A DNA stretch of 64,000 bases from a virus: positions 19,535 through 83,534 of the IMG/VR virus record IMGVR_UViG_3300042561_001059, one strand, 5' to 3'. Under the pieces are notes generated by a model. That model was given only the letters and a program-made list of their open reading frames with translations, was not told the DNA's origin and did not search any database. Below are positions 1 through 10,257 of the stretch, piece after piece; the first letter of the stretch is position 1, and each line of letters begins with the position of its first letter. The position numbers and the translations under genes are program-made.

Positions 1-1374
1 TACTGTAGGCAAGACGTATCAGTTACCTACAAACTATTTCAGCACATTCAAAAACAAAACTATCCAGAACCAGCGCTTAAGTTGGAACATGACTTTGCTT
101 TGGCAATTGAAAGACAAATTAGATCAGGTTTTCCTTTTGATGTTGATGCATGTCTTGATCTGGTGGATGATCTCCGAACAAAAGAAACAGAACTTGCAAC
201 ACACTTAAAACAAATCTTTCCACCTATTGAACATAAAGAAGTATTTGTACCCAAGGTAAATAACAAAACTCGTGGTTATGTTAAAGGCGTACCATTTGAA
301 AAAATTCGTATAGAAGAATTTAACCCTGGATCCAGGCAACAAATTACAGATCGATTAAAACAAAAGTACAATTGGCAACCTGAAAAATTAACAGCAAAAG
401 GTAATCCAATTCTTGATGATGAAGTCATTGAGAAGTTGCCATATCCAGAAGCTAAACCGTTAGCAGAATATATGTTGATTGAGAAACGTCTTGGTCAAAT
501 TGCTGATGGCAACAATGCTTGGCTCAAACTTGTTAACAATGACACCGGTTGTATCCACGGTGATCTTATTACTAACGGTTGCATTACTGGGCGTTGCGCA
601 CACCGCAATCCAAATATGGGTCAAGTCCCTGCTGCTTACTCCCCATATGGAAAGGAATGTCGAAGTTTATTCCATGCTCCTGACGGGTGGTCTCTCATTG
701 GTGTTGACGCTAAAGCACTTGAGTTACGTTGCCTTGCTGGATACCTTGCCCTCTGGGATAATGGAGAGTATGCCTCTGTTGTGACTAATTCAGATGTTGA
801 CATTCATACTTATAACCAAGAAAAGTTTGGTGTTGCTACCAGGGACATTTCAAAGCGACTTTTATATGGGCTTCTATATGGATGTGGATCTTTGAAGGCT
901 GGAACAATTATTAATCCAGATGAAAAAGATGTAGAAGTTCTGCGTCACTTAGGAAGTAATGCAATCAATTCATTCATGCGTGGACTGCCAGCTTTGAAGC
1001 GATTAAAAAATGAAATCGCTTTATCTATTCAACAGCGTGGTTGGTTGTATGGATTAGACAAACGTATTCTTTATTGCAGATCTGACTTTAAAGGATTGAA
1101 TGTATTATTACAATCTTCTGGTGCATTAATTATGAAACAAGTTGTTATTAACTTGCATCAATTAATGGAAGAGGCTGGTTATCAATATGGAGTTGACTGG
1201 CAACAACAAGGCATGATCCATGACGAAATCCAGTTGAGTTGTAAACCAAACCTTGTGGAAACATTAAAAGAGCATGCGTTAAATGCATTTCCTGCAGCGC
1301 AACAATTCTTTGGATTTCGTTGTCCCATTGAGGGCGATGCCAAAGTAGGATACACCTGGCTTGATACTCATTAA
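1..1374 (+). CDS. DNA polymerase, family A (T7 gp5-like), 5' end cut by window
   Basis: Replicative DNA polymerase with 3'-5' proofreading. The frame is open from base 1, so the gene starts outside the window. The visible start encodes YCRQDV, the Tyr-x-x-x-Asp motif that ends a DnaQ-type exonuclease domain. The polymerase motifs follow in order: motif A DAKALELRCLAGYL (Asp codon 706-708), motif B RDISKRLLYGLLYG (841-882) and motif C HDEIQLSC (His codon 1219-1221). Motif A and its NGEYAS tail closely match T7 gp5. The residue equivalent to E. coli Phe762 and T7 Tyr526 is Tyr (codon 865-867). It leads an early replication run with the SSB gene next. Assignment is secure; the N-terminal part cannot be judged. 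Confidence 0.95.
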   Translation, partial: YCRQDVSVTYKLFQHIQKQNYPEPALKLEHDFALAIERQIRSGFPFDVDACLDLVDDLRTKETELATHLKQIFPPIEHKEVFVPKVNNKTRGYVKGVPFEKIRIEEFNPGSRQQITDRLKQKYNWQPEKLTAKGNPILDDEVIEKLPYPEAKPLAEYMLIEKRLGQIADGNNAWLKLVNNDTGCIHGDLITNGCITGRCAHRNPNMGQVPAAYSPYGKECRSLFHAPDGWSLIGVDAKALELRCLAGYLALWDNGEYASVVTNSDVDIHTYNQEKFGVATRDISKRLLYGLLYGCGSLKAGTIINPDEKDVEVLRHLGSNAINSFMRGLPALKRLKNEIALSIQQRGWLYGLDKRILYCRSDFKGLNVLLQSSGALIMKQVVINLHQLMEEAGYQYGVDWQQQGMIHDEIQLSCKPNLVETLKEHALNAFPAAQQFFGFRCPIEGDAKVGYTWLDTH

Positions 1375-1390
1375 TAAAATATTAACTATT

Positions 1391-1417
1391 CGTCCTAGGC
1401 ATGACGCTAAACTGCCT
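1391..1417 (+). promoter_or_regulatory. RNA pseudoknot element, copy 1, leader of SSB gene
   Basis: The RNA can form an H-type pseudoknot. Stem 1 is CGTC (1391-1394) with GACG (1403-1406). Stem 2 is AGGCA (1398-1402) with TGCCT (1413-1417). It starts 16 nt after the polymerase stop and ends 21 nt before the SSB start codon. The 21-nt spacer is pyrimidine- and A-rich and has no AGGAG-like sequence. Two further copies (2496 and 5707) keep both stems while stem-2 bases change in pairs, which supports a selected RNA fold. Function is inferred to be translational control. Confidence 0.75.
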
Positions 1418-1438
1418 TACCACCTGACTTCTGATCCA

Positions 1439-2251
1439 ATGAATCTTTCATTTCTTTGTGCACAAACGGTTGGCGTACCAAAAGAAAAAGCTATTAGCGA
1501 AAATTCTTTTGCAACTGTTTGTGATTTGTTGTTGCCTCCTGTAGGTAACAAAGCTCCAACACCTATTCAACTTAATGTTTATGGCAAAGCTGCTGAGCGT
1601 TTTGCTCGTGTACCAGCGGGTGCACAGATTTACATCCATGGTTCAAAGCTTCGGTACGATTTGAATTCAAAGACTTATTCATTGCAAGGGGGAATTGTTA
1701 CCCAGGTTGATACTGCATTTCCAATTTTGAACACTGTTGTTCTTAGTGGTCGTTGCGTTAAAGACATCGATCAAGAAGATGCACGTGCATTCAAAACAAC
1801 CGCAGATGGTTTGATGATCTGCAATCAAACTCTTTCTGTTAATACAGGAAGAAACCAAGCAGATTTGTTTAACTTCTATGCAATTAATACAGCAGAAGAT
1901 AAGTTAAACAATGCAGAACTTCTGGTTAACTTTACACGCAAAGGAACGGGTCTTAGCATCCAGGGTAAGTTGGTTACTGATTCTTGGGTTGATAAAGAAA
2001 CCAAAGAAAAAAAGAATCTGACCAAGATTCAATTGGTGTCAATGACCTTGGCTCCCAAGGGAAATACAGAGTCAAAGCCAATTACATCGCAGACAACCGT
2101 TGCATCTTCTACAGATGTTGGGAGTTTGTGGGGTGGCAAGGTTGCAGAAGATCTTGCGGAACCATGGGGATCTCAACATGGTGCATCTCTTCCTGACCTC
2201 CCTGGCTATGCTATGGCTGGCGCTAACGACGACTCTGACCCTCCGTTCTGA
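1439..2251 (+). CDS. ssb: Single-stranded DNA-binding protein (two OB-fold regions)
   Basis: This 270-residue protein probably coats single-stranded DNA at the replication fork. The second half has an SSB-type OB-fold strand pattern (GLSIQGKLVTDSWVDKET, then KIQLVSMTLAPKG). The protein ends DDSDPPF, matching the acidic, Phe-terminated tip with which bacterial SSBs recruit partner proteins. The N-terminal ~110 residues look like a second OB-like region, making it longer than E. coli SSB (178 aa). I chose ATG 1439 because it follows the pseudoknot leader; the open frame extends upstream to 1361 only through that element. It lies directly after the polymerase gene. A T7 gp2.5-type protein is the alternative, but the VTDSW strand favours bacterial-type SSB. 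Confidence 0.8.
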   Translation: MNLSFLCAQTVGVPKEKAISENSFATVCDLLLPPVGNKAPTPIQLNVYGKAAERFARVPAGAQIYIHGSKLRYDLNSKTYSLQGGIVTQVDTAFPILNTVVLSGRCVKDIDQEDARAFKTTADGLMICNQTLSVNTGRNQADLFNFYAINTAEDKLNNAELLVNFTRKGTGLSIQGKLVTDSWVDKETKEKKNLTKIQLVSMTLAPKGNTESKPITSQTTVASSTDVGSLWGGKVAEDLAEPWGSQHGASLPDLPGYAMAGANDDSDPPF

Positions 2252-2256
2252 ATCCA

Positions 2257-2490
2257 ATGACTATTTACAATCATTACGAATTTAAACATGTTGATGATTC
2301 CACCACTTACTTGGTTTCGTTTAACGCCGATCTTGGATCAAGTATTATTGATTCTTTTATTAACTTCATGAGCGGCTGTGGGTTTGCAAAATCATTTGTA
2401 ATTAATTACATGGAAGAACTTGTTGAAGAATACAGAGATGCGCAAAAAACACTTGCAAAAATTGAAGACGAACTTATTGGTCTTGATTGA
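2257..2490 (+). CDS. Hypothetical protein, 77 aa
   Basis: I do not recognise this family. The protein is acidic and probably alpha/beta in its first half, with a helical charged C-terminus (EELVEEYRDAQKTLAKIEDEL) that could form a coiled coil. It starts 5 nt after the SSB stop, so it is probably translationally coupled to SSB. It ends 5 nt before the second pseudoknot copy. A small partner of the replication proteins is possible from position alone. Confidence 0.75.
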   Translation: MTIYNHYEFKHVDDSTTYLVSFNADLGSSIIDSFINFMSGCGFAKSFVINYMEELVEEYRDAQKTLAKIEDELIGLD

Positions 2491-2495
2491 TTAAC

Positions 2496-2522
2496 CGTCC
2501 TGGGCATGACGTTAAACTGCCT
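2496..2522 (+). promoter_or_regulatory. RNA pseudoknot element, copy 2
   Basis: Second copy of the pseudoknot. Stem 1 is CGTC (2496-2499) with GACG (2508-2511). Stem 2 is GGGCA (2503-2507) with TGCCT (2518-2522), including one G-T wobble. It begins 5 nt after the preceding stop and ends 21 nt before the next ATG, the same spacing as copy 1. The spacer is C/A-rich with no Shine-Dalgarno sequence. Confidence 0.75.
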
Positions 2523-2543
2523 ATCACTCAACAACAAACCATC

Positions 2544-3635
2544 ATGACTTCTATTCTTGATGCTCTGAGACAACCTGATCCTGACACTGAACAAACCTCT
2601 GAACCTACTACTAAAACATCTGCAAAAATCATGACTACTAAGAAGACATCTGCATTGGCTACTCGTGGACTGGAATCGTTCAAACTTTTTCAAGATAAGA
2701 AGTTTGTTTCCGGGTACCAAAATCTCGTCACCATCCAGCCCCTTAACAAGTCAAAGACAAGAGGTTGGTTCGTGCGGAACTCAGACTTGGATACTTGCGG
2801 ATGGAGTGCCACTGAAACTGACTTTGCTAAAGGTTCAGTTCTCTGGAACTACAAGCAAACTTTTGGTATGGCTCCCAACACTTCAGTGGAAGAAGGACTC
2901 AATTTTGTTGAGCCTCGCATTCAAATCCTTTTACGTTCTCCCCTCATGGTTGAGGAAACTACTGGGATGAGGCAGACGATTGGAACCTTTGAGGATCCAG
3001 ATGTTAAAGAATTGTTTGAAGCAGATAAAATTGCGTCGGACCTTGCTAATAGCAAAGGTGAGATGTACAAGCGTAAGTACAGTGTACGTACAAAGTATCT
3101 TGTTTATATTCTGACCCAGGAAAACAAGCGTGCGCATAAGATTCCAATGGTTCTTACCCTGAAGGGATTGAATGGCACAGATGTTTCCGACAAGGTCAAG
3201 ATGTATGAAAAAGAAATGTCCAAGTGTTTGAGCAAGGCTTTGGATTCGGAGGTGCCTCTTGCATTCAATGAAAAGTTTTACGCAACTACCGTATTTGCTC
3301 CGATACTTGCCAACGAAATGCGTGGCGCCAACAACGTTGAGATCTGCGCAATTGAATCTTTTAACATCCCTGATTACAGCAGCCAAGAAACCGCAATCGA
3401 ATCACTAAATCAGATGTCAATTCCTGATGAAGATCGGGAATCAACTTGGAAGTATCAAGACATGTTTGCGGATTATATTAATCAGCATGCACGTCAAGAC
3501 GCTGAAAAACTTGGTGGTGCTTATGGAATTAAAGAAGGTGTTGAAATTCTTCCGGCATCCAGGAGCATTGATGTAGAAGCAAAGCTTTTAACTTCTGCAC
3601 AAGATCCTGATACGGGTGAGAACTTTAGTTTCTAA
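2544..3635 (+). CDS. Hypothetical replication-region protein, 363 aa
   Basis: Function not recognised. The first ~45 residues are polar and Thr/Lys-rich and probably disordered. The remainder looks globular, with no membrane segment or obvious enzyme motif. ATG 2544 follows the second pseudoknot copy; the longer open frame from 2487 runs back through that element and is unlikely to be translated. Position between SSB and a SWIM protein, under the same leader type as SSB, suggests a DNA-transaction role. That is inference only. Confidence 0.85.
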   Translation: MTSILDALRQPDPDTEQTSEPTTKTSAKIMTTKKTSALATRGLESFKLFQDKKFVSGYQNLVTIQPLNKSKTRGWFVRNSDLDTCGWSATETDFAKGSVLWNYKQTFGMAPNTSVEEGLNFVEPRIQILLRSPLMVEETTGMRQTIGTFEDPDVKELFEADKIASDLANSKGEMYKRKYSVRTKYLVYILTQENKRAHKIPMVLTLKGLNGTDVSDKVKMYEKEMSKCLSKALDSEVPLAFNEKFYATTVFAPILANEMRGANNVEICAIESFNIPDYSSQETAIESLNQMSIPDEDRESTWKYQDMFADYINQHARQDAEKLGGAYGIKEGVEILPASRSIDVEAKLLTSAQDPDTGENFSF

Positions 3636-3919
3636 GACTTAAGTTCAGGGTTGGCAATTTCATTTGCATCAATCAACACATTGTTGAATAAGTGAATGTC
3701 TTTAACCAACCCTTTTATTACACCTTGACGTTGTGTGGCGATTCTTGCTAAAAGAGTCGCCATTTCTTTTAATGCATTTACGGAGTTACAATCTTGAATT
3801 GCACGTTTAATTTTTTCTTCCCAAAATAAATCATCAATTGATGGTTCAATATCAAACTTACTAAGTGGCACGTAATGCTCTTCCATAAATAACCATGGAG
3901 GATAATCAATTCTACACAT
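3632..3919 (-). CDS. Hypothetical protein, 95 aa, on opposite strand
   Basis: Not recognised. A helical stretch with motif DDLFWEEKIKRAI and a C-terminal half (ALKEMATLLARIATQRQ) look like a compact helical bundle. It is convergent with the upstream gene (4-nt overlap at the stops). I place the start at ATG 3919, since the longer frame to 3994 would run into the divergent gene at 3930; ATG 3886 is also possible. It is the only minus-strand gene in the first 10 kb, so it may be separately regulated. Confidence 0.6.
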   Translation of the reverse strand: MCRIDYPPWLFMEEHYVPLSKFDIEPSIDDLFWEEKIKRAIQDCNSVNALKEMATLLARIATQRQGVIKGLVKDIHLFNNVLIDANEIANPELKS

Positions 3920-3929
3920 AACTAAACAA

Positions 3930-4121
3930 ATGAAACATGAAGAAAAAGTTGCGTTGGCTACAGGAACAGCAGTTATGTTGATTGCTGGTCCCATAGCTCT
4001 TGCACTGGGAACACCAGTTGCCTTTGGTGCCCTTGCTTTTGGTACGTATCGAACTGCAAAGTCTGCCTATGATCGAGCCTTGTTTCGTAGTAAAGTGAAG
4101 CCGCCCCACGGGGAACTTTAA
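3930..4121 (+). CDS. Small membrane protein, 63 aa
   Basis: A short protein with a charged N-terminus (MKHEEK) and a long hydrophobic stretch at residues 7-40, enough for one or two membrane segments, then a basic tail. No family recognised. Its start lies 10 nt from the divergent gene at 3919. A role in the host membrane is plausible from composition only. Confidence 0.65.
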   Translation: MKHEEKVALATGTAVMLIAGPIALALGTPVAFGALAFGTYRTAKSAYDRALFRSKVKPPHGEL

Positions 4122-4144
4122 TTAACTCAACTTTTAATCAAACC

Positions 4145-5113
4145 ATGGAAAACCAATTAGTAACGCAACTCAACACAGCACAACAATTTATTTACTCTCG
4201 TTCAAATATTAGGAGAGCTTATTTAGATTTTGATGATACTGACATTGCAGGAATTAATCTTTCTGATAAAGATATTATTGTTATTCGCAATGACGGTACA
4301 AATCAAAAGTATGACAAGCAATTGGTTTGTAGTGCGTACCAGGCATATACAGGACGCTTAAAAGACTTCTTTGCTTACTTGGGACCTAACTATCGTGGAC
4401 CATCAATCTGGCGAAACAATGCCTACATCATGTTTAAAGGTTGGCACTACAACCATAAGCTGGGATACCTTACGCAATCTGCACAAATACAACGTGCGTG
4501 GGCTGATAAATTCATTCACATATCAGATCGAACCAAGTTGGTTCAATTACTTCAATCAGATCAAACTGACCTTGGGCACCTGGTTGCCCCTGATGGTTTC
4601 CACGAAATTAATGATGCCATTGACTTTGATGCTCCTGAACCAGAATCGGATGTTGAGGCTAGTAGCTTACAAAAACTTCAGGCAAGTCCATACTGCTCTT
4701 GCGGTTCGTTCCAAAAACAACTGAATAATCTATCTGAGTTCCAGGCTGAGATTGAAGGTTACAAGCCTTGGTGTATTCATTTAACATGGATGCAACGTTA
4801 TCGTCAGCTCCTTGTTAAACGTGGTGAAGTCCGTTCGCAATGCCGTGGTCAAGTTGCAGAACATGCTGTGGCTTGGTGGTACGCACCACCAGAAGGCAAG
4901 TCTGATGAAGGGAGGTTTGTTGTTTTATACACCAAGCAAGGCTCTATGGCTTCACTTAAGTCTTGGCGTACCTACAAACCAAAAGAAGTCTTTACTCAAA
5001 AACATGTTTGGGATTTATTTGATAACATGTTAGATAATGGCTTTGTTCCGTTTCCAGGTACTTCTCTTCCTCAATTAAAAAACGCATGGAAAACAACGCC
5101 AAAGAATACATAA
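4145..5113 (+). CDS. SWIM zinc-finger protein, 322 aa
   Basis: Contains a SWIM-type zinc-binding pattern: CSC at about residue 184 and CIH at about residue 210, a CxC...CxH arrangement. SWIM domains occur in DNA- and protein-binding factors across bacteria. The flanking sequence is aromatic-rich (WWYAPP) and not assignable. It overlaps the next gene by 28 nt. A DNA-binding role is inferred from the finger and the replication-gene neighbourhood. Confidence 0.75.
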   Translation: MENQLVTQLNTAQQFIYSRSNIRRAYLDFDDTDIAGINLSDKDIIVIRNDGTNQKYDKQLVCSAYQAYTGRLKDFFAYLGPNYRGPSIWRNNAYIMFKGWHYNHKLGYLTQSAQIQRAWADKFIHISDRTKLVQLLQSDQTDLGHLVAPDGFHEINDAIDFDAPEPESDVEASSLQKLQASPYCSCGSFQKQLNNLSEFQAEIEGYKPWCIHLTWMQRYRQLLVKRGEVRSQCRGQVAEHAVAWWYAPPEGKSDEGRFVVLYTKQGSMASLKSWRTYKPKEVFTQKHVWDLFDNMLDNGFVPFPGTSLPQLKNAWKTTPKNT

Positions 5114-5343
5114 CTCAAATGCAGTTTGAATGTGCTGACCCTGCTTCTGTATTTAAACTTGACATTAAATACATTGAAGAAGAAAATGGAGGCGGTACTA
5201 TTCAAATTGAATGGGACGAAGAAGATGCTGATCTCCAATGGTGGAATAACCTTGGAGAAGAAAAGCAACAACAATTTATTCTTGATGCTTTAACTGCTGC
5301 TATTTCTAATGCACTTGATGAGGATGAATCTGATGGGATTTGA
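5086..5343 (+). CDS. Hypothetical acidic protein, 85 aa
   Basis: Not recognised. It is strongly acidic with a DEDESDG end. Its start lies inside the last codons of the SWIM gene in another frame, and its stop lies just past the next gene's start, so the three genes form a tightly overlapping, probably coupled run. Confidence 0.7.
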   Translation: MENNAKEYITQMQFECADPASVFKLDIKYIEEENGGGTIQIEWDEEDADLQWWNNLGEEKQQQFILDALTAAISNALDEDESDGI

Positions 5344-5701
5344 AACTTACGGCTTGCCTGAAACTGAGTACTACAAAATTTTAAGTAGTAAGTCTCAGTT
5401 TATTCTTAACTGTTTAGCAGTTATGACAACTGAAGCTTCTAATAAAGGCATTAACCTTCAAGGGTTTAACGACAAATTTCTTTGGGATATGTTTATGGAA
5501 TGTGTGTATTCTGCTGATGAGGAAGCACGCATCATTCAAAAAGAAAACAACCCAGATGAAATTAAAGCTAGATCGTGGGATCCAGGCCCTAGTCGAGATG
5601 AGCTAATGGAAGAAATTAAATCTGTCAACGCTAAAACAGAAGCATTGACTGATTACATTGCAGAGTTAATAACTAAATTTTTTCCTAAAGTTACAGATTA
5701 A
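5333..5701 (+). CDS. Hypothetical protein, 122 aa
   Basis: Not recognised. It is mostly helical, with a Pro/Ser break followed by a coiled-coil-like tail (ELMEEIKSVNAKTEALTDY). ATG 5333 is preferred because a GAGG sequence lies about 10 nt upstream and the start overlaps the previous stop region; upstream in-frame Met codons at 5309-5324 are alternatives. The third pseudoknot copy begins 5 nt after its stop. Confidence 0.7.
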   Translation: MGFETYGLPETEYYKILSSKSQFILNCLAVMTTEASNKGINLQGFNDKFLWDMFMECVYSADEEARIIQKENNPDEIKARSWDPGPSRDELMEEIKSVNAKTEALTDYIAELITKFFPKVTD

Positions 5702-5706
5702 TTAAA

Positions 5707-5733
5707 CGTCCTAAGCATGACGTTAAACTGCTT
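5707..5733 (+). promoter_or_regulatory. RNA pseudoknot element, copy 3
   Basis: Third copy. Stem 1 is CGTC (5707-5710) with GACG (5719-5722). Stem 2 is AAGCA (5713-5717) with TGCTT (5729-5733). Compared with copies 1 and 2, the outer stem-2 pairs have changed on both sides (GG/CC to AA/TT), a compensatory change. It ends 22 nt before the ATG of a 37-residue ORF and again has no Shine-Dalgarno sequence in the spacer. Confidence 0.75.
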
Positions 5734-5755: not shown

Positions 5756-5869
5756 ATGTTTGAAAGCATTTTGTCTGCTGTTCTTCCGATTGTTAAAGAT
5801 TTACTTTGGACAGCATGCGCAGCACTGCTGGCCTATATGGTAAACAAACTAACCAATCAATTTACTTGA
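5756..5869 (+). CDS. Predicted small membrane peptide, 37 aa
   Basis: A short ORF with a central hydrophobic helix (ILSAVLPIVKDLL, then WTACAALLAYM) and a polar end. It could be a single-span membrane peptide or an amphipathic inhibitor. Support for being real: it sits 22 nt behind the third pseudoknot, as two larger genes do behind theirs, and its TGA lies one base before the next gene's ATG. Function unknown. Confidence 0.6.
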   Translation: MFESILSAVLPIVKDLLWTACAALLAYMVNKLTNQFT

Positions 5870-9705: not shown

Positions 9706-10257
9706 ATGTATACCCCTGGTCCTCAAACAGTTCCTGTGCCCCAGGCTCCTGTGGTACAAGAGGTTCCTCAACCACAAGAGAAGCCCAAGACACCTGCTAA
9801 ATCCAAAGGCAATGATGTTGGTGGGTTCATCCAGCAGGTGATTGGACTGGCTGCGTACGTGCATCAACTGCAGGTGCAATCACACTTACTTCATTTCAAC
9901 TATGAAGGATCAAACTTTTTAGGTGTTCATAAGTTTTTAGGTAAACAATATGAAGCCCATCAAGAACAATTTGACAAGTTAGGTGAGTTTATTCGTTCGA
10001 TGGATTATTTGCTTCCACAGTGTTACAACGGTTTGATAGATGCAAGCCCTGAGTTTAAACATGTATCTAGTTATAAAGGTACAGAAATGCTTGGCGTGTA
10101 CTATAAAAACCTTGAAGAGCTTGGCATGAAAACTAAAAAGTTAGAACCTATTGCCGCTAAAGTTGGTGCAATTGATATTCAAAACTATATGGCTGAGTTA
10201 TGTGGTGAAGCATTTAAAGCAGCCTGGATGATTAAAGCAACACTTAGAAACGGTTAA
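9706..10257 (+). CDS. Dps-like ferritin-fold protein, 183 aa
   Basis: Resembles Dps, the iron-storing and DNA-protecting mini-ferritin. After a Pro/Gln-rich extension (residues 1-35), the sequence has HFNYEGSNFLGVH. His63, His75, Asp90 and Glu94 have exactly the spacing of E. coli Dps ferroxidase residues His51, His63, Asp78 and Glu82; the fifth ligand (Asp67) falls on Gly79. Length is near the family norm once the extension is removed. Protection of DNA from iron-driven oxidation during infection is the natural reading. A ferritin-like structural protein without iron chemistry is the alternative. Confidence 0.65.
   Translation: MYTPGPQTVPVPQAPVVQEVPQPQEKPKTPAKSKGNDVGGFIQQVIGLAAYVHQLQVQSHLLHFNYEGSNFLGVHKFLGKQYEAHQEQFDKLGEFIRSMDYLLPQCYNGLIDASPEFKHVSSYKGTEMLGVYYKNLEELGMKTKKLEPIAAKVGAIDIQNYMAELCGEAFKAAWMIKATLRNG

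Follow-up and report, generated by a model that had tools for sequence, protein, structure and literature searches.

The window analysed in this study (the whole stretch of 64,000 nt) comprises bases 19535–83534 of an 83534-base virus record. It begins with the 3′ part of a family A DNA polymerase gene (1..1374, + strand; PF00476, PHROG DNA polymerase), which is followed on the same strand by a single-strand DNA-binding protein (SSB) gene (1439..2251; PF00436, phrog_44), a small ORF of 77 aa (2257..2490) and the gene of a DUF5895 protein (2544..3635; PF19247). Further downstream, an ORF of 130 aa (5309..5701, +) precedes a hydrophobic ORF of 37 aa (5756..5869, +), which belongs to the family of MFE.. 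ORFs located behind pseudoknots in phage S-EIV1 and its relatives. The gaps in front of the SSB gene, the DUF5895 gene and the 37-aa ORF each contain a 27-nt element on the + strand, drawn as an H-type pseudoknot of two crossing stems. In copy 1 (1391..1417), stem 1 is formed by 1391–1394/1403–1406 and stem 2 by 1397–1401/1413–1417, and the loops are CT (loop 1, 1395–1396), T (loop 2, 1402) and CTAAAC (loop 3, 1407–1412). The corresponding segments are 2496–2499/2508–2511, 2502–2506/2518–2522 and TTAAAC (2512–2517) in copy 2 (2496..2522), and 5707–5710/5719–5722, 5713–5717/5729–5733 and TTAAAC (5723–5728) in copy 3 (5707..5733).

Copy 1 starts 16 nt past the stop codon ending at 1374 and leaves 21 nt to the ATG at 1439; copy 2 starts 5 nt past the TGA of the 77-aa ORF (2488–2490), with 21 nt to the ATG at 2544, and copy 3 starts 5 nt past the TAA of the 130-aa ORF (5699–5701), with 22 nt to the ATG at 5756. 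These positions and spacings are exactly those given in an earlier sequence-only reading of the DNA, and a scan of the window with the common 27-nt pattern (up to three mismatches) returned the copies at 1391, 2496 and 5707 only (0.00 matches expected). The same reading had noted that a Shine–Dalgarno (SD) sequence is absent from all three spacers between pseudoknot and ATG, which was borne out. Its claim that the bases of stem 2 change together on both sides was right, as regards these three copies, for one pair only (G–C to A–U in the copy at 5707); the change from AGGCA to GGGCA opposite TGCCT is one-sided (A–U to G–U). An ATG inside copy 3 (5717–5719) shares the reading frame of the 37-aa ORF, the translation of which could start within the pseudoknot. 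The ATG in each pseudoknot of this phage reads M-T/S-L-N-C; a conserved leader peptide was rejected because the frame ends at differing places and because A or C in loop 2 elsewhere removes the ATG.

The whole record contains seven pseudoknots. They all belong to the + strand and fall within 9.9–25.3 kb in record coordinates, and the nearest called ORFs run in the same direction as each of them. Three of the four copies outside the window were retrieved by pattern search and the fourth, at 9866, by script. They are located at record positions 9866 (+, GGAC/GTCC), 12055 (+, GGACA/TGTCC), 12789 (+, GGTC/GACC and GAGCA/TGCTC) and 17731 (+, AGATA/TGTCT). Stem 1 thus occurs in the record as CGTC/GACG, GGTC/GACC and GGAC/GTCC, and stem 2 in six versions, all of them paired. 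The closest isolate, Synechococcus phage S-EIV1 (72.5% across the parts that align), carries the element at matching places, including the one before its SSB gene. When the seven copies of the record were combined with five from S-EIV1, 97.2% of the cells paired and five pairs displayed double-sided changes; the covariation score was 0.466, compared with 0.180 for shuffled alignments (0/500 reached the score) and at most 0.149 for slid ones.

A further alignment was anchored on a protein that we take to be DUF932-like: the loci were fetched by similarity of this protein, not by the motif, and aligned after its stop codon, five hairpin-type loci and one other being excluded. Here 97.8% of the cells paired, double-sided changes were found in 7/9 pairs, and the covariation score was 0.512 (0.172 when shuffled; 0/500 shuffles reached the score). 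The consensus reads stem 1 (4 bp), CU, stem 2 (RRNYA/UGNYY), U/A/C, the 3′ side of stem 1, NNAAAC and the 3′ side of stem 2. Analysis of the sequences confirmed the 27-nt element as a real, strongly selected H-type RNA pseudoknot, as had first been proposed, and established its fold, covariation, conserved loops, strand, position, phasing to stop codons, interchange with hairpins and wide distribution. A DNA promoter or a protein-binding site on DNA was rejected, the covariation of two crossing stems and the orientation of the genes pointing to RNA.

Homologues with both stems kept, on which the earlier proposal depended, were detected in a total of more than 200 phage contigs and bacterial genomes by scans in which either the stems or the loops were left free. 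With mainly the unpaired letters fixed, 132/132 viral matches had at least 7/9 pairs, several pairs being fixed by the pattern; all six free pairs were complete in 98/132. In the reverse scan (stems fixed, loops free), approximately 126 of 130 matches had CU or CC in loop 1 and NNAAAC or NNAAUC in loop 3. The pseudoknot is common to phages of cyanobacteria, Firmicutes, Actinobacteria and alphaproteobacteria and to gut crAss-like phages, named carriers being SIO1, ICBM1, crAss-like cr7_1, Lj771, StB12, D6E, Labelle, ParMal1, S-H35 and NMeng1. Bacterial genome contigs with the element were mostly from Bacillota, then from Omnitrophota and others. None of the 81 pseudoknot-bearing genome contigs was from Pseudomonadota, although alphaproteobacterial phages do carry the element, and one query variant gave no match in E. 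coli genomes. BLAST matches in Salmonella phages (weak, 18 nt only) and a match within an antisense gene of Erwinia phage Bue1 were taken as chance.

Several side observations were made during these scans. A variant with a 4-nt loop 1 (CTTG/CTGG) and an otherwise identical core lies upstream of SSB genes (loci L455, L457–L460, L462, L463, L466, L469, L471, L472 and L498). In Saprospira grandis (L169:4554, − strand), the pseudoknot sequence makes up most of a spacer between repeat copies of an apparent CRISPR array, as if a pseudoknot-carrying phage had been targeted in the past. In Omnitrophota and some anaerobes (L132, L147, L165, L197, L235, L242 and others), a short ORF ending in ..VAHCKEGC.. 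is overlapped at its end, or followed, by the element; in several cases, as judged by eye, the gene of an Rrf2-like regulator begins shortly after the element.

The pseudoknots lie almost always between tandem genes, and clear convergent or divergent placement was rare (simple ORF method). A stop codon ending 3–15 nt upstream was found for 54% of 391 pseudoknots, compared with 4.3% of random positions, with TAA, TAG and TGA all in use. The distance from this stop had its mode at exactly 5 nt (77 elements), followed by 6 and 7 nt; only 19/391 elements were nearer than 5 nt, several of them overlapping the stop. With each upstream protein family counted once, the spacing was 5–7 nt in 71/176 and 4 nt or less in 8. 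For ordinary hairpins that follow stops in these contigs, the distances were flat, with some excess at 0 and without a peak at 5 nt. The most general feature of the pseudoknot proved to be its distance from the stop upstream, which the sequence-only reading had listed and left unused. A substantial minority is located far from any stop.

On the other side, the next start was most often 20–35 nt away, and the flanking nucleotides (spacer and downstream) vary except for a preferred A at +1. The downstream genes fall into 194 families; in Firmicutes phages the element precedes scaffold–capsid genes. Adjacent tRNA genes lie downstream, at about 2–11 nt (the nearest upstream tRNA is 39 nt away), and in Arthrobacter phage Molivia the order is SSB, 6 nt, pseudoknot, tRNA-Gly. 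In crAss-like phage cr7_1 (L356:3848–3874), the pseudoknot is followed after about 4–5 nt by a tmRNA-like sequence; the tmRNA is annotated as starting at 3719, ahead of the pseudoknot, and this annotation may be wrong. Self-cleaving hatchet (L199:6822–6916) and pistol (L110:662–732) ribozymes (Rfam) are present in the same contigs as pseudoknots. Other phages carry the pseudoknot before SD-bearing ORFs as well, and in 3′ UTRs from which the next ORF is usually more than 100 nt away. Ribosome docking for SD-less genes, one of the roles suggested initially, fails as a general reading because of these ORFs, the tRNA genes and the 3′ UTRs; the suggested tie to the downstream gene stands in this phage family, with its fixed 20–22 nt.

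Two sets of loci bear on the question to which gene the pseudoknot belongs. Among 62 distinct SSB loci, 46 strict copies and about 14 variants were found, and the pseudoknot keeps a distance of 20–22 nt to the ATG irrespective of the gene in front of it; ORFs inserted upstream of SSB likewise end 5–6 nt before the pseudoknot. Among 62 distinct DUF932-type loci, the pseudoknot was present in 53 (in 46 of these at 5–7 nt from the stop) and as variants in four more; in the other five, its place is taken by a strong hairpin of between −25 and −32 kcal/mol, in three cases with a U-tract. After DUF932-like genes the pseudoknot is kept 5–7 nt past the stop while the downstream sequence changes (tRNA-Asp or distant ORFs). 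Strict ownership by the upstream gene only or by the downstream gene only was rejected, as both kinds occur. In several loci (L361–L389) a short CCC..GGG-type hairpin directly follows the pseudoknot of the DUF932 gene, and in some a −35-like TTGACA lies further downstream.

The reading that we favour, tentatively and with a chance put somewhat below even, is that of a compact boundary element that would keep its fold in the space between a ribosome finishing one gene and a ribosome starting on the next, and would shield the flanking cistrons from decay. The RNA is predicted to fold into a compact two-stem knot, similar in plan to the BWYV frameshift pseudoknot. A ribosome on the upstream stop codon would have the knot immediately ahead of its mRNA entrance, and a ribosome initiating on a downstream gene close by would usually have it immediately behind; clear of both, the knot could stay folded during translation of both genes. 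As a roadblock to nucleases (perhaps to ribosome drift too), it would close the naked gap between the cistrons and protect either the upstream message at its 3′ end (order DUF932, pseudoknot, tRNA) or the downstream message on its 5′ side (before SSB and scaffold–capsid genes). The interchange with terminator-like hairpins and the placement between an mRNA and a tRNA suggest such shielding of message ends; protection of this kind, like any contact between knot and ribosome, is what we infer from the sequences. Neighbouring messages seem to be kept apart, and are probably protected, by this undescribed “punctuation mark”.

Some points do not sit easily with this boundary element. The pseudoknot is tied to the downstream gene in the case of SSB and to the upstream gene in the case of DUF932, so that one mechanism must serve both sides. 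A purely mechanical barrier would have no obvious need of such widely fixed CU and AAAC loops, and a specific partner may be involved; nor does a generic barrier predict the gaps in E. coli genomes (one query variant) and Pseudomonadota (81 contigs). Compactness of the genomes could lie behind part of the close spacing. RNase J was found above the cut-off in 16/24 genomes behind pseudoknot loci; some bins of Bacteroidota and Omnitrophota, perhaps incomplete ones, lacked it. An xrRNA-like barrier to RNase J as the only role is weakened by hosts without clear RNase J. A bolder reading, which we consider rather unlikely, would make the element a pan-phage RNA class that acts through the terminating ribosome, is phased to stops, senses or shapes termination and sets the fate of cistrons, with its CU/AAAC core recognised by conserved host machinery.

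The exact 5-nt phasing to stops of unrelated genes, absent in ordinary hairpins, together with the inserted ORFs that end 5–6 nt before the pseudoknot in SSB loci, would also suit a device acting on translation itself. Abutting the terminating ribosome, such a device would block drift, readthrough or reinitiation, or promote recycling, so that neighbours are translated independently. It is rather unlikely, given the pseudoknots before tRNAs or in long 3′ UTRs, where there is no downstream start to insulate, and the substantial minority far from a stop. Stop-codon readthrough was rejected, TAAAAC in loop 3 giving an in-frame stop in some 5-nt cases, and recoding is unlikely because no consistent slippery heptamer was seen by eye before the stops and some loops 3 contain in-frame stops. 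For a processing site or mini-ribozyme making new RNA ends beside the knot speak the highly conserved loops and the gaps between genes that it occupies, which are like those of two known phage ribozymes (the hatchet of L199 and the pistol of L110); with only 27 nt and flanks that vary apart from the A at +1, this role is highly improbable.

A signal for the end of transcription, as a pseudoknot-type intrinsic terminator or attenuator, agrees with the T5 runs within 12 nt downstream (18% compared with 0.26% at control positions) and with the terminator-like hairpins that replace the pseudoknot in some DUF932 loci. Most copies, however, including all seven of this phage, have no U-tract, the 20–22 nt before the SSB ATG leave no room for a new promoter, and some pseudoknots directly follow a terminator-like hairpin, which renders this role quite unlikely. 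We regard as similarly doubtful a translational operator of the downstream gene, to which a metabolite or a phage or host protein would bind, as in SSB autoregulation of the T4 gp32 kind. Copy 1 precedes an SSB gene, the 20–22 nt to the SSB ATG are kept across relatives, and an operator with a pseudoknot is known in the mRNA of T4 gene 32 (PMC3014915); the downstream products are nevertheless unrelated (DUF5895, scaffold, glutaredoxin, tRNAs; 194 families), and in DUF932 loci the pseudoknot belongs to the upstream gene.

A 27-nt fold that is absent from Rfam and yet present in phages of so many hosts would rank among the most widely spread cis-RNAs of phages. The phasing to stop codons hints at a rule by which the genes of dense phage operons are kept apart, the pseudoknot would be a small, designable part for the control of polycistronic messages, and a categorically new role is possible.

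The earlier statement that no published class fits was upheld in Rfam 15: no family matched in the window at or above the gathering score, and in eight loci no match was obtained at the elements with E up to 10, so that identity with a known ribozyme, riboswitch or ncRNA was rejected. No description was found in open full texts, subscription papers and preprints being largely outside this scope. H-type pseudoknots are a known kind; to our knowledge, the core, phasing and distribution of this one were not known before. Type III antitoxin RNAs (ToxI) are small H-type pseudoknots of similar plan with a UUUAAG-like loop 3; around the present element, unlike ToxI, neither a tandem repeat nor an associated toxin gene pattern was seen. 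The frameshift pseudoknots of BWYV and luteoviruses are H-type, with a short loop 1 beginning with C, a one-nucleotide loop 2 (U) and an A-rich loop 3 over stem 1. The element shares this plan and a similar spacing, but its stems have 4+5 pairs (5+3 in BWYV), and it follows stop codons between cistrons of bacteria and phages, with no slippery site seen. In −1 frameshift signals the structure begins about 5–9 nt after the A-site codon (PMC5009743), and the mode of 5 nt after the stop falls within this range. Intrinsic terminators and 3′ protective hairpins occupy the same site after some DUF932-like genes; they are simple hairpins without the 5-nt phasing in the same contigs, and the U-tract of an intrinsic terminator, lacking in this phage, accompanies 18% of pseudoknots elsewhere. 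The STAXI motif (RF01728) comprises 2–3 tandem pseudoknots, often with UUCG loops, near genes of SSB and other DNA-associated proteins (PMC2864571); the present pseudoknot, also near SSB genes, is single, its copies are spaced by genes, and it has a different core with CU and NNAAAC loops and no Rfam match. In T4 gene 32 mRNA, a phage H-type pseudoknot likewise lies upstream of an SSB gene, 67 nt away and with an AU-rich operator (PMC3014915), whereas the element described here is 21 nt upstream and occurs in many unrelated gene contexts.
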